A DNA stretch of 64,000 nt. Source: Streptomyces sp. CG1 (GTDB taxonomy: Bacteria > Actinomycetota > Actinomycetes > Streptomycetales > Streptomycetaceae). Positions 54,201 through 58,508 of this stretch are shown here, one piece after another. The stretch spans positions 2,418,001 through 2,482,000 of the forward strand of contig NZ_CP163518.1 of assembly GCF_041080625.1 (NCBI RefSeq). Direction: 5' to 3'. Every line of letters begins with the position of its first letter. Position 1 is the stretch's first letter. Both the position numbers and the translations under genes were made by a program. The notes beneath the pieces were generated by a model that searched no databases, was not told where the DNA came from, and worked only from the letters and a program-made list of their open reading frames with translations.

Positions 54201-57200
54201 CTACTTCTCGGTGACCCCAGCCGAATCGAACGTCGCCACCTCATGCATCGCCCTCGCCGTGCTCTGCACCAACGGCAGCGCCAGCAAGGCACCCGTGCCC
54301 TCGCCCAGCCGCAGGTCCAAGTCGACCAAGGGGCGCAGGCCCAGCTTGTTGAGGGCTGCCACATGGCCCGGTTCGGCGCTGCGGTGGCCCGCGATGCAGG
54401 CCGCGAGGACCTCGGGGGCGATGGCGCGGGCGACCAGGGCCGCGGCGCCGGCGCTGACGCCGTCCAGGATCACCGGCGTACGCAGCGAGGCGCCGCCGAG
54501 GAGCAGGCCGACCAAGGCCGCGTGCTCGAAGCCGCCGATCGCCGCGAGGACGCCGATGGGGTCGGCCGGGTCCGGCTGGTGGAAGTCCAGGGCACGCCGG
54601 ACGACCTCGGTCTTACGGGCCAGCGTCTCGTCGTTGATGCCCGTGCCGCGGCCGGTGACCTCCGCCGGGTCGGCCCCCGTGAAGACCGAGATCAGCGCGG
54701 CGGACGCGGTGGTGTTGGCGATGCCCATCTCACCGGTGAGCAGGGCCTTGTTGCCTGCCGCCACCAGGTCGCGGGCGGTCTCGATGCCCACCTCGATGGC
54801 CGCCTTGGCCTCCTCGCGGGACATCGCGGGCCCGGTGGTCATGTCGGACGTACCGCCGCGGATCTTGCGGGGCAGCAGACCGGGCGTGGCGGGCATGTCG
54901 GCGGCGACGCCGACGTCCACCACGCACACCTCGGCGCCGACCTGGTTGGCGAAGGCGTTGCAGACCGCTCCCCCGCCGAGGAAGTTGGCCACCATCTGGG
55001 CGGTGACCTCCTGCGGCCAGGGGGTGACGCCCTGGGCGTGCACACCGTGGTCACCGGCGAAGATGGCGACGGCGGCGGGCTCCGGGATCGGCGGCGGGCA
55101 CTGCCGGGACAGCCCGGACAGCTGCGCGGAGATGATCTCCAGCATGCCGAGCGCGCCGGCCGGCTTGGTCATGCGTTTCTGCCGCTCCCAGGCCTCGCCG
55201 AGGGCCTTGGCATCGAGCGGGCGGATCTGTGCGACGGTCTCGGCAAGCAGGTCGTGGGGTTCCTCTCCGGGCAGGGCGCGGCGGCCGTACGTCTCCTCGT
55301 GCACCACCCAGGACAGGGGGCGTCGCTTGGACCAGCCGGCCTGCATCAGCTCGGGCTCGTCCGGGAACTCGTCGACGTACCCGACACACAGGTAGGCGAC
55401 GACCTCCAGATGCTCGGGCAGGCCGAGCGCGCGGACCATCTCCCGCTCGTCGAAGAAACTGACCCAGCCGACGCCGAGGCCTTCGGCGCGGGCGGCGAGC
55501 CAGAGGTTCTCCACCGCGAGCGCCGAGGAGTAGGGCGCCATCTGCGGCTGGGTGTAGCGGCCGAGGGTGTGGCGGCCGCCGCGGGTGGGGTCGGCGGTGA
55601 CGACGATGTTGACCGGGGTGTCGAGGATGGCCTCGATCTTCAGTTCCTTGAACTGCTTGGCCCGGCCCTTGGGCAGCGACTTGGCGTACGCCTCGCGCTG
55701 TCGCATCGCCAGTTCGTGCATCGTCCGCCGGGTGTCGGCGGAGCGGATGACGACGAAGTCCCAGGGCTGCGAGTGGCCCACGGAGGGCGCCGTGTGGGCG
55801 GCCTCCAGGACACGCAGCAGCACCTCGTGCGGGATGGGGTCGCTGCGGAAGCCGTTGCGGATGTCACGGCGTTCGCGCATGACCTTCAGGACGGCCTCGC
55901 GCTCGGCGTCGGCGTAGCCGGGCGCGGCCGGGCCGTTGGGCTGTGCTGCTTCCGCCACGACGGCCGTGCCCTCTTCTTCCTGCTCTTCCTGATCGGCGGC
56001 CCTGGTCTGCAGGTCCTCCGCTTGCTGTACGACATCGGGGGCGTGCTCCGCTCCCGTTGCCATGGGTGCGGTGACCGGCTCGCCCTCGCGCGGCGCGGGC
56101 ACCGTGGCCACCGGCTGCGGTGTGTCCTCCGTGGGCAGGACCAGGGGCTGCGGCGGGGTCGGCGCCAGGTGCGGGGTGGTGGGCACCTGGCCCTCGACCG
56201 GCACGAACTGCCCGAGCGGCTGCTCCGGGTCCGGCGCCGGCGGCACCTGGGTCGGCAGCGGTCCGGTCGGCTCCCCCTGGTCGGCGGGGGACGGCTGCCC
56301 GGCGGTCTCGGGGTGCGCGGGGGCGCTGCCGACGGGGCCCGCGGGGGCAGCGCCGACCGGGTCGGCCGCCGGGGTGGGCTCCGCCTCGGCCGCGGCAGGT
56401 GCGGCAGCCGCGTCCGTGGGCTGCGTCTGCGGGCCGGCGGGGGCGCCGGGGTCGGTCACGGGTGCCCCCTCGGCAGCGATGGCGACCTGGTGGACGGCGT
56501 CCGGGGCCGCCGGATCGGGCTGGGCCTGCGGGTGTGGCTCGGCCGCGGGCTGGGGCTGCGGTACGCCGGGTACGGCCTCGGCGGCCGCCACGGGCCCGGC
56601 CAGCTGCGGGCCCTGAGCCGGGTAGGGGTGCGGCTCCGGGGTGGCGGTGCCGTCGGCGGCCGGTGCCGGTACGGCGTCCTGAGCGGGTACGGCTGCCGGG
56701 GCGTCGGCCTGCGGAGTCGCCGGGGTGCCGGGGTCGGGCACGGCCGTCGCCGTCGGTCCGGGGGCCGGTACGGGTTCGGGGGCGGATGCGTGGTGGGCGG
56801 CATCCACCTGGCCCGCCACCGCGCCGGACTGCGGCTCCGTGACCGCGGCGGTGTTCGGATCGGGCTGCGCCGGGTGGGCGGCCTCGCCGTGGGCCGGAAC
56901 GGCCTCCGGCACGACCTGGGCCACGTCCGGCGCCTGCGGTGCGGGACCGGAGTCCGTGGCCTCCGTGGCGCGCTGCGCGGGGACGGTTCCCTCGACAGCC
57001 GTCACGGCAACCGCCGCGGTGTGCGGGACGGCGGCGCTTTCGGCGACCGGCGCAGCCTGCGCGGCGACGGCACCTCCGGGGACCGCGGCGCCCTGCGCGG
57101 CGACGGCGCCCTCGGGCGCGTTGGAAGCCTGCCCGGCGTCGGCGACCGGCGCACCCTCCGCCTGCTCCGGGGCGCCGCCCGGCTGAGCCGGCGCGGACGC

Positions 57201-58508
57201 CTCGGCGGCGGCCTCGGCCGGACCGGCAGCCTGAGCCGGCGTGGCCTGGGCCGGCACCGTCGGCACCGGGGCCTGGGCCGCTGCCTGCACCTCTGCCTGA
57301 GCCTCTGTCTCCTGGACGGCACCCGGTTCGGCCGGGTTCACCGGTGCGGTCTCCGGCGCGGGGGCGGCATCGGTCCCCTGGACCGCCGCGGCCTGCTCCC
57401 CGGCGGCGTCCGCCGCCACGGCGCCGGCCTGCTCGGCCTCGGACGACGCCACGGCAACCTCGGCAGGCAGCCCGGCCTGCGCCTGGGCCACGGGCGCACC
57501 ACCGGCACCGGCAACGCCTCCAGCCACGGCGGCCGTAGCAGCGGGCACGCCCTGGCCGGCCTCGCCGGACGGCTGCTGGACGCCCTCGGGGCCGTAACCG
57601 GAAACAGGCGACGGGACACCCTCCGGGCCTCCCGCCGCAGCGGACGCGACCACGCCCTCGGGTCCCTGAGCCACGGCGGACGGCTGCACGCTCTCGGGAG
57701 GGGTACCGGCCGGAGCCGTGTACACCCCGTCGTGACCGTGTACGGGCTGCACTCCGTCGTGCCCGTGCACCACTTGAGCCTGAGCCTGAGCCGTACTTGG
57801 AACCGGTACGGCGGCCTGAGCGACGCCGGGCGGGTCGCCCAGGTCGGCGGAGTTCGCGGGGGCGGCGGCCGGGTCAACCGTTTCGCCGGCCGGGGCCGTT
57901 GCGCCGACCTGGGCCACCGCGGCGGGTGCCGGTGCCCCGGCCTCGGCCGTCGCGGGGGCGGTGGGCGCCGCACCCCAGGGAGCCGCGCTCTGCGGGGCCA
58001 TGTCGCGCACCGGCTGGGCGTCGAGGTACTCGGGGCCGGCCGCGGGCGCACCCGGCTGCCGTACCGGCGCTCCGGCCGGGCCGCGGTCGGCGAGGGAGCG
58101 GACCGGGCTCGCGGAGGCGTCGGGGATCGGCGGGCCGAGGTGCAGCGGACGGCGCGGCGGCTGGGGGGCGGCCGACGGGTCCTGCGGGGCCGAGAGGATG
58201 GGCGACGGCGGCACGGAGGCCGGGGCCGGGTTCGGCAGGCGGACGCCGCCGAGGTCGACGGAGCCGCTGTCGCGGCCGGCCGTCTCGTGCGGGCCCGGCT
58301 CGTGGACGGCCTCGACCACCGGTTCCGGAGCGGGTGGCGGCACTTCGTTGCCCCACGCGCCCTGGGCACCCGGCAGCAGCAGGTCTTCGTCCTCGGCGGG
58401 TGCTTCGGAGAGGTAGGTGTACGCACCGTGCGCGGGGACGCCCGGCTGCTCCACCATGCCTGCACTCTCCGGCTGTCCCTCGCCCGGGACCTGGCCGGTG
58501 TCGGTCAT
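54201..58508 (-). CDS. cobT: BluB-CobT fusion with a very long disordered N-terminus
   Basis: 1435 residues. Residues 1 to about 860 are low complexity, dominated by Ala, Pro, Val, Glu and Gln with no fold. Residues about 864-1080 are a BluB/nitroreductase-like domain (RRDIRNGFRSDPIPHEVLLRVLEAAHTAPSVGHSQPWDFVV, NIVVTADPTRGG, GLGVGWVSFFD), which makes the 5,6-dimethylbenzimidazole base from reduced flavin. Residues about 1095-1435 are CobT (KPAGALGMLEI, AIFAGDHGVHAQGVTPWPQEVT, GEMGIANTTASAAL, PVILDGVSAGAAALVARA, catalytic Glu in RLGEGTGALLAL), which activates that base to alpha-ribazole phosphate. One chain thus makes and activates the lower ligand of B12. Confidence 0.93.
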   Translation of the reverse strand: MTDTGQVPGEGQPESAGMVEQPGVPAHGAYTYLSEAPAEDEDLLLPGAQGAWGNEVPPPAPEPVVEAVHEPGPHETAGRDSGSVDLGGVRLPNPAPASVPPSPILSAPQDPSAAPQPPRRPLHLGPPIPDASASPVRSLADRGPAGAPVRQPGAPAAGPEYLDAQPVRDMAPQSAAPWGAAPTAPATAEAGAPAPAAVAQVGATAPAGETVDPAAAPANSADLGDPPGVAQAAVPVPSTAQAQAQVVHGHDGVQPVHGHDGVYTAPAGTPPESVQPSAVAQGPEGVVASAAAGGPEGVPSPVSGYGPEGVQQPSGEAGQGVPAATAAVAGGVAGAGGAPVAQAQAGLPAEVAVASSEAEQAGAVAADAAGEQAAAVQGTDAAPAPETAPVNPAEPGAVQETEAQAEVQAAAQAPVPTVPAQATPAQAAGPAEAAAEASAPAQPGGAPEQAEGAPVADAGQASNAPEGAVAAQGAAVPGGAVAAQAAPVAESAAVPHTAAVAVTAVEGTVPAQRATEATDSGPAPQAPDVAQVVPEAVPAHGEAAHPAQPDPNTAAVTEPQSGAVAGQVDAAHHASAPEPVPAPGPTATAVPDPGTPATPQADAPAAVPAQDAVPAPAADGTATPEPHPYPAQGPQLAGPVAAAEAVPGVPQPQPAAEPHPQAQPDPAAPDAVHQVAIAAEGAPVTDPGAPAGPQTQPTDAAAAPAAAEAEPTPAADPVGAAPAGPVGSAPAHPETAGQPSPADQGEPTGPLPTQVPPAPDPEQPLGQFVPVEGQVPTTPHLAPTPPQPLVLPTEDTPQPVATVPAPREGEPVTAPMATGAEHAPDVVQQAEDLQTRAADQEEQEEEGTAVVAEAAQPNGPAAPGYADAEREAVLKVMRERRDIRNGFRSDPIPHEVLLRVLEAAHTAPSVGHSQPWDFVVIRSADTRRTMHELAMRQREAYAKSLPKGRAKQFKELKIEAILDTPVNIVVTADPTRGGRHTLGRYTQPQMAPYSSALAVENLWLAARAEGLGVGWVSFFDEREMVRALGLPEHLEVVAYLCVGYVDEFPDEPELMQAGWSKRRPLSWVVHEETYGRRALPGEEPHDLLAETVAQIRPLDAKALGEAWERQKRMTKPAGALGMLEIISAQLSGLSRQCPPPIPEPAAVAIFAGDHGVHAQGVTPWPQEVTAQMVANFLGGGAVCNAFANQVGAEVCVVDVGVAADMPATPGLLPRKIRGGTSDMTTGPAMSREEAKAAIEVGIETARDLVAAGNKALLTGEMGIANTTASAALISVFTGADPAEVTGRGTGINDETLARKTEVVRRALDFHQPDPADPIGVLAAIGGFEHAALVGLLLGGASLRTPVILDGVSAGAAALVARAIAPEVLAACIAGHRSAEPGHVAALNKLGLRPLVDLDLRLGEGTGALLALPLVQSTARAMHEVATFDSAGVTEK

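Follow-up and report, generated by a model that had tools for sequence, protein, structure and literature searches.

What an enzyme of cobalamin synthesis gains from an 864-residue N-terminal extension is the question raised by one gene of Streptomyces sp. CG1, located in a stretch of 64,000 nucleotides (positions 2,418,001 to 2,482,000 of contig NZ_CP163518.1, assembly GCF_041080625.1) that is referred to here as the window. In a single frame, this gene encodes the Ala/Pro-rich extension, a BluB domain and a CobT domain, giving a product of 1,435 residues (Table 1). An earlier reading made from the letters and open frames only (the sequence-only reading) had proposed that BluB and CobT are joined in one such chain between cobL and cobA, and this is borne out by the open reading frame and by matches to TIGR02476 and TIGR03160 that exceed their cut-offs. 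The BluB-CobT fusion itself is already known; the nature of the extension is the new part. The evidence described below shows a conserved block of short motifs followed by a hypervariable linker, and the preferred reading, which we hold at about an even chance, is that the extension serves as a flexible tether on which the conserved motifs bring at least one partner protein next to BluB-CobT.

The first ~165 residues form an ordered array of short motifs, M1 to M5, after which the fast-changing linker begins. Among 47 loci, the order M1-M2-M3-M4-M5 is fixed wherever the motifs are present and their spacings vary widely. The motif patterns were written after viewing the sequences, and both a division into training and test sets and 20 extra loci were meant as a correction; hidden Markov models (HMMs) of the motifs were trained on Streptomyces sequences and tested on other Streptomycetaceae and on shuffled extensions. 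At an expectation value (E) of at most 0.05, the M2 model matched 29/29 Streptomyces loci and 18/18 loci of other Streptomycetaceae, the M3 model 27 and 7, and the M5 model 19 and 8, respectively. M4 was found in 28/29 Streptomyces loci and in 18/18 loci of other genera, the latter count being biased since those 18 loci were picked by their N-terminal match. None of these four models matched any of the 47 shuffled extensions. The M1 pattern was present in 47/47 loci (shuffled mean 0.06), partly by construction, as its first 5 residues had been used to define where each locus begins.

The only motif found throughout the family is M2, with the pattern [DE]n-x-LLMPGPQGxW and the invariant residues LL, P, Q and W. 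It was found in all 65 Streptomycetaceae loci with an intact frame, 18 of them from genomes without an N-terminal search match, and in 20/20 loci from genomes without such a match, where several occurrences are weak by HMM or detected by pattern only; in L164 its frame differs from that of the core, and in L150 a frame break separates the two. M4 was present in 14 of these 20 loci and absent from L149, L151, L159, L161, L166 and L168, which have open extensions of 1,223-2,467 residues. Three of them (L149, L159 and L166, from genomes G574, G590 and G600) carry 1,733-2,467 open residues before the same core; they retain M2, but M4 was not found in them. A further motif, M7, is confined to part of Streptomyces: its pattern occurs in 11/29 Streptomyces loci, in 0/18 loci of other genera and in 53 of 105 homologues.

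The start MTDTGQ is shared by 105 of the 120 best homologues (of 3,268 scored, among proteins of 0.55-1.75 times the query length), and the extension is therefore not a chance reading frame. One homologue record, P0023, shows a PF04616 domain ahead of BluB-CobT on a 6.4-kilobase (kb) contig and is perhaps a misassembly. The frame runs uninterrupted from the N-terminus to the core in 65 of the 71 Streptomycetaceae loci examined (L059, L089-L118 and L129-L168); as far as sequence can tell, the N-terminus is thus not absent among relatives, and it is its absence that would have spoken against the sequence-only reading. A family-wide listing gave a match in 150/150 family genomes, at least four of them weak or broken (G582, G608, G610 and G635), and of its 145 rows in which the core is almost complete, 134 belong to frames of at least 1,062 codons; a match to the N-terminus was obtained in 91/150 family genomes. 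The M4 model matched a long open frame in 21/25 genomes of the window's genus and in 0/16 others at E<1e-5, and in the 12 of those 21 genomes that could be compared, frame length or place agrees with the fusion gene. The M2 model likewise matched a long open frame in 12/13 genomes of the genus and in 0/8 others; in genome G002 the motif hits are split over two contigs. Matches elsewhere all had E>=0.014 for M4 (41 genomes) and E>=0.059 for M2 (21 genomes), and no convincing reuse of either motif in other proteins was found in these genomes.

Selection was compared in 10 pairs of the window protein with relatives, using the ratio of nonsynonymous to synonymous substitution rates (dN/dS). Residues 1-175 showed a dN/dS of 0.16-0.35 and an identity of 80-98%. 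The linker, residues 176-710, showed values of 0.42-0.67 and 36-80%, with 6-27 in-frame gaps, and the pre-core segment a dN/dS of 0.46-1.94. In the core, dN/dS was 0.03-0.09, identity was 94-99% and there were no gaps. Because synonymous divergence of the motif block is close to that of the core in nine of the ten pairs (it is half that of the core in the tenth, with L108), the constraint on the motif block acts on the protein and not on the DNA, and a constraint at the DNA level was rejected. Since residues 1-175 are under selection at the protein level, a start near residue 840 cannot be the sole one in use; such a start is what the sequence-only reading had named as the finding that would undo it. 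The comparison across orthologues thus gives a motif block that is conserved and a linker that varies in both length and sequence.

The extension of the window protein shows no Pfam or NCBIfam domain on residues 1-864 at E<=0.001. With AlphaFold2, residues 1-861 of the window protein were modelled without helix or strand of note (mean predicted local distance difference test, pLDDT, of 44). In the homologue P0221 (1,017 residues), residues 1-440 were modelled as unstructured and the core as mostly confident; 10-residue pLDDT means in the extensions were 32-62. No hidden folded domain was found, either by Pfam/NCBIfam or in the two models, and the 864-residue extension is predicted to be disordered, in agreement with the sequence-only reading. 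Its composition is unusual: the 535-residue linker contains four aromatic residues and one Lys or Arg, residues 1-864 as a whole contain 9 Phe, Trp or Tyr, 11 Arg and no Lys, and two stretches of the protein free of Lys and Arg measure 344 and 293 residues. This trait is shared by relatives. The 47 extensions, 32,732 residues in total, hold 17 Lys, 605 Arg and 4,713 Asp and Glu, and 45 linkers (16,962 residues) hold 13 Lys and 166 Arg (1.1%, vs 10% in the cores), with 15% Asp and Glu. Only six short, weak repeat arrays were found in the gene, so that tandem-repeat expansion does not account for the linker as a whole. Formation of condensates calls for abundant aromatic or Arg 'stickers'; given the scarcity of both, the condensate-forming segment that had been suggested as one role for the N-terminus is disfavoured.

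Long extensions are not confined to the Streptomycetaceae. Twelve loci were fetched from the rest of the order, for which the label Catenulisporaceae-type is our assignment. In eight of them the extension is open over 625-1,010 residues; in three, a contig edge truncates it at 404-747 residues, and one, L194 from another family, has no extension. Gly and Arg abound in most of the Catenulisporaceae-type extensions. The patterns WNDRIEEPTVTGADDFGR, PTTEF and EMLVPW, likewise written after viewing the sequences, occur in 7/12, 8/12 and 8/12 of these loci, and the M2 and M4 patterns in 0/12. Among Nocardiopsidaceae-type proteins (P0121-P0209, 70 records of at least 690 residues), GLLDxLPExGRG was found in 62/70, NVIPFR in 52/70 and NPF in 49/70. 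GLLDxLPE also occurs in 13 of the 23 class-level loci L060-L082, several of the others being without an extension. Lysine is rare in the extensions of both of these types as well. Disordered-looking long arms thus recur on BluB-CobT, each family having motifs of its own. The three families' M2-like motifs ('LLMPGPQG', 'PTTEF..LVFDD' and 'GLLDDLPEQGRG') were compared by eye only; a common ancestor for them was set aside, and the M2 model misses 14 Nocardiopsidaceae-type extensions, in which none of the M2 to M5 HMMs gave a match at E<=0.05.

A tether with docking sites is suggested because the spacer drifts in sequence and length while distant short motifs stay constant, and of the roles that had been proposed for the N-terminus, tether or partner docking is the most likely. 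The drifting spacer would act as a flexible tether between the motifs and the enzyme core, the conserved motifs would bind the partner or partners, and docking would raise the local concentration of the partner. The main docking site would be M2, the sole motif found universally, with M3 to M5 as extra sites that a lineage may lose. As a first guess, the partner would be another cobalamin assembly enzyme or a protein that provides reduced flavin. Binding of the motifs to the protein's own core is disfavoured, as the full-length model of P0221 leaves residues 1-440 unstructured (this is a monomer model, and docking across a dimer is possible); partners in trans therefore remain. RNase E of gamma-Proteobacteria, with its disordered region, partly AEPV-rich, that carries partner-binding microdomains (excerpts of PMC4435900), is a precedent. 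The two share an enzyme joined to a large region, disordered by prediction in the window protein, with short motifs that are better conserved than the sequence around them, keep a fixed order in the BluB-CobT extensions and are gained or lost by lineage. They differ in that the RNase E region is C-terminal, serves RNA decay and has known partners, whereas the BluB-CobT extension is N-terminal and belongs to cofactor synthesis; a sequence relation is not claimed.

The composition of the linkers could also be explained if the acidic, lysine-poor extension were an entropic bristle that keeps a chain of two dimeric enzymes soluble, its conserved start serving mainly translation or stability. The low Lys and Arg content and the abundance of acidic residues given above speak for such a bristle, its length drifts freely (462-1,198 residues in the 47 loci), its composition varies by family while the extension persists, and in the fusion of Propionibacterium freudenreichii both domains have predicted dimer interfaces (excerpts of PMC4657239). 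A bristle needs no fixed sequence, however, and M2 and M4 persist over a large part of the family, well away from the start codon and at a variable distance from it; most Catenulisporaceae-type extensions, moreover, are rich in Arg and Gly. This explanation is thus considered possible but rather unlikely. The position of the motifs, held away from the core by a long spacer, would also suit an address tag that sends the enzyme to a hyphal site, such as the pole, the membrane or polysomes, and not to a pathway partner, and the families with long extensions are known as mycelium formers. Address signals, though, are usually shared and reused among proteins, unlike M2 and M4 in the genomes searched, and the motif block shows neither a Pfam/NCBIfam domain nor a predicted helix, which makes such a tag improbable.

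Lysine scarcity, with no Lys in the 865 N-terminal residues of the window protein and 17 in all 47 extensions, could further hint that the extension controls degradation, for example by denying Pup ligation its lysines or by giving a protease an unstructured place to begin. Against this, the other two families have lysine-poor extensions too, the scarcity stems partly from high G+C, the core does contain lysines, and M2 and M4 resemble no degron that could be named, so regulated turnover appears very improbable. A similarly poor prospect, and if anything a slightly poorer one, is that the N-terminal part is non-functional, an internal start yielding the core alone and the remainder being drifting low-complexity sequence. 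An internal ATG or GTG preceded by a Shine-Dalgarno-like word does occur in 29/47 loci (in the window, a GTG at codon 684), and the frame is broken in a few loci, as described below. These candidate starts, however, lie at scattered distances from the core, a Met occurs among the 60 residues that precede the core in just 11 of 105 homologues, and no conserved internal start was found in the 47 loci or the 105 homologues. Together with the purifying selection on residues 1-175, the ribosome-binding stretch conserved before M1 (position -11 is G in all 47 loci, position -10 is A in 44 and position -9 is G in 45) suggests that the whole chain is very likely translated.

Several observations weigh against the tether with docking sites. 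The binding of partners is something we infer, and no docking site is demonstrably common to all fusions, as the motifs differ among families. Fusions free of an extension exist (e.g., L194 and L082), so the chemistry of the fusion does not need one. M3 to M5 are lost in some members, as is M4 in six of the 20 loci from genomes without an N-terminal match, and the M4 and M2 models gave no match in 4/25 and 1/13 genomes of the genus, respectively. The charge-hydropathy rule dissents from the prediction of disorder, by classing two of three segments, motif block and linker, as folded. In 6/71 Streptomycetaceae loci the frame breaks between the motif block and the core, and in the family-wide listing 11/145 rows lie in frames of 624-920 codons, some at contig edges; where such short or broken frames are genuine, as opposed to artefacts of assembly or of a contig's end, the motif block is dispensable. 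The frame-broken loci are L115-L118, which had been fetched for their short frames, L150 and L164 (genomes G101, G168, G009, G234, G576 and G598). Some of these genomes consist of one to three contigs, and the breaks could reflect either genuine loss or misassembly of GC-rich repeats.

In the enzyme core, the BluB domain scored 302.9 bits against the TIGR02476 equivalog (5,6-dimethylbenzimidazole synthase, cut-off 150) and the CobT domain 418.7 bits against the TIGR03160 equivalog (NaMN:DMB phosphoribosyltransferase, cut-off 319.3). D882 and S1017 align with D32 and S167 of BluB from Sinorhizobium meliloti (2isj alignment, in which the chain index is 3 higher), by the numbering and with the catalytic roles that we take these residues to have; a literature search on the roles of D32 and S167 found no paper. 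E1403 aligns with E317 of Salmonella enterica CobT, presumably a catalytic residue. In a Foldseek comparison of the AlphaFold2 model of a homologue, the CobT region resembled 1wx1 (template modelling score, TM, of 0.95 on the target) and the BluB region 2isj (E 2.8e-14, TM 0.71, but with a root-mean-square deviation of 16.5); the homologue's model shares its fold with both. S. meliloti BluB (2isj) and the CobT of Salmonella and Thermus (1d0s and 1wx1), which belong to the same sequence families and have the key residues in common, are separate proteins without an extension. Public records label the homologues as phosphoribosyltransferase or synthase.

BluB followed by CobT in one frame is the architecture of BluB/CobT2 of P. 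freudenreichii, a characterised fusion of 626 residues that makes and activates dimethylbenzimidazole with metabolite channelling (excerpts of PMC4657239). By analogy, BluB would make dimethylbenzimidazole, from reduced FMN, and CobT would activate it here as well. The two proteins differ in that the P. freudenreichii fusion, as described in these excerpts, is without a long N-terminal extension, and in the interdomain spacer, which has ~34 residues and 23% Pro in P. freudenreichii and 28 residues with 3 Pro in the window protein. The sequence-only reading had suggested that the fusion may channel the base between its two sites. Such channelling is on record for P. freudenreichii, and because that fusion is free of an extension, channelling between the sites does not need one. 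For Streptomyces griseus, one sentence of PMC4657239 mentions an additional N-terminal 'protein of unknown function' on a BluB/CobT fusion. This is the same architecture, and in the window protein the extension can now be divided into a motif block, a linker and a segment preceding the core; the selection analysis and the family-wide comparison are added here. Besides that sentence, no account of the extension was found in the open-access literature as far as it was accessible, and accounts elsewhere are possible; a term search of the text of PMC10038948 gave no match on the extension, and the passages on the S. coelicolor region in PMC6585502, PMC3388780, PMC9262613 and PMC7174319, located through gene numbers of that region, do not mention it.

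The genomic setting is that of cobalamin synthesis (Table 1). A cobA-type gene downstream and a cobL-type gene upstream, both on the same strand as the fusion gene, were found in 30/30 Streptomyces loci (L089-L118). The longest open frame of the cobA-type gene spans 52729-54183, but an ATG at 53961 sits behind GGAGGAG, and the start is likely at 53961 rather than at 54183. In the cobL-type gene, CbiE exceeds its NCBIfam cut-off and CbiT remains below it (61.5 vs 78.3 bits). No riboswitch was found at Rfam gathering scores in the 64-kb window. An antisense open frame of 1,572 codons (53862-58580, + strand) spans the whole fusion gene; with a third-position GC of 84-94% on the coding strand of the fusion gene, such a frame is expected in high-GC coding DNA and is therefore not evidence of a gene. 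Beside the B12 genes, at 61027-63841, lie frames that resemble a methionine-type ABC importer (substrate-binding lipoprotein and ATPase), named by eye. Rfam further gave five consecutive tRNA genes at 47152-47629 on the + strand and single ones at 34289-34360 and 40241-40312 on the - strand.

Table 1. Features of the BluB-CobT fusion gene and its neighbours, in positions of the window
Feature	Position	Strand	Basis or remark
Whole gene (N-terminal extension, BluB and CobT)	54201..58508	-	Open frame, 1,435 codons, ATG start
Shine-Dalgarno-like stretch GGGCGAGGGG, just 5' of the ATG	58514..58523	-	Conserved upstream of M1
M1, residues 1-23 (MTDTGQVPGEGQPESAGMVEQPG), begins MTDTGQ	58440..58508	-	Pattern
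M2, residues 29-52 (...EDEDLLLPGAQGAW), family-wide motif	58353..58424	-	HMM and pattern
M3, residues 74-92 (HETAGRDSGSVDLGGVRLP), GRDSGSxDL	58233..58289	-	HMM
M4, residues 119-146 (RRPLHLGPPIPDASASPVRSLADRGPAG), RRPLHxGPPxPD...VRSLADRGP	58071..58154	-	HMM
M5, residues 158-163 (GPEYLD)	58020..58037	-	HMM
Hypervariable linker, residues 176-710	56379..57983	-	Acidic, rich in Ala, Pro, Val, Gly and Gln; 1 Lys or Arg in 535
M7, residues 765-792 (LGQFVPVEGQVPTTPHLAPTPPQPLVLP), part of Streptomyces only	56133..56216	-	Pattern
BluB domain, residues 865-1070	55299..55916	-	TIGR02476, alignment to 2isj
CobT domain, residues 1099-1432	54213..55214	-	TIGR03160, alignments
cobA-type gene (NAD-binding and uroporphyrinogen-III methyltransferase)	52729..53961	-	Pfam/NCBIfam; downstream of the fusion gene
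cobL-type gene (CbiE and CbiT)	58854..60104	-	NCBIfam; upstream of the fusion gene

Whether B12 intermediates are handed over within a standing complex is an old question, and a conserved docking motif on a metabolic enzyme, if true, would provide a handle on this enzyme-to-enzyme handover. With one Lys or Arg in its 535 residues, the linker of the window protein would be nearly invisible to tryptic mass spectrometry, and tryptic proteomics would miss most of the extension. The analysis also offers a likely identity for the N-terminal 'protein of unknown function' of the S. griseus fusion. Taken more broadly, and as a speculation that is more probably wrong than right, BluB-CobT could be a hub of the last cobalamin steps in mycelial actinobacteria, where giant disordered arms (up to ~2,400 residues), different in each family, would recruit the other enzymes through family-specific docking motifs. 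This would parallel the RNase E degradosome for B12, with a constant enzyme and an arm that each family has remade. The BluB-CobT proteins would, in any case, provide an example of a disordered arm with family-specific motifs on a much better conserved enzyme.

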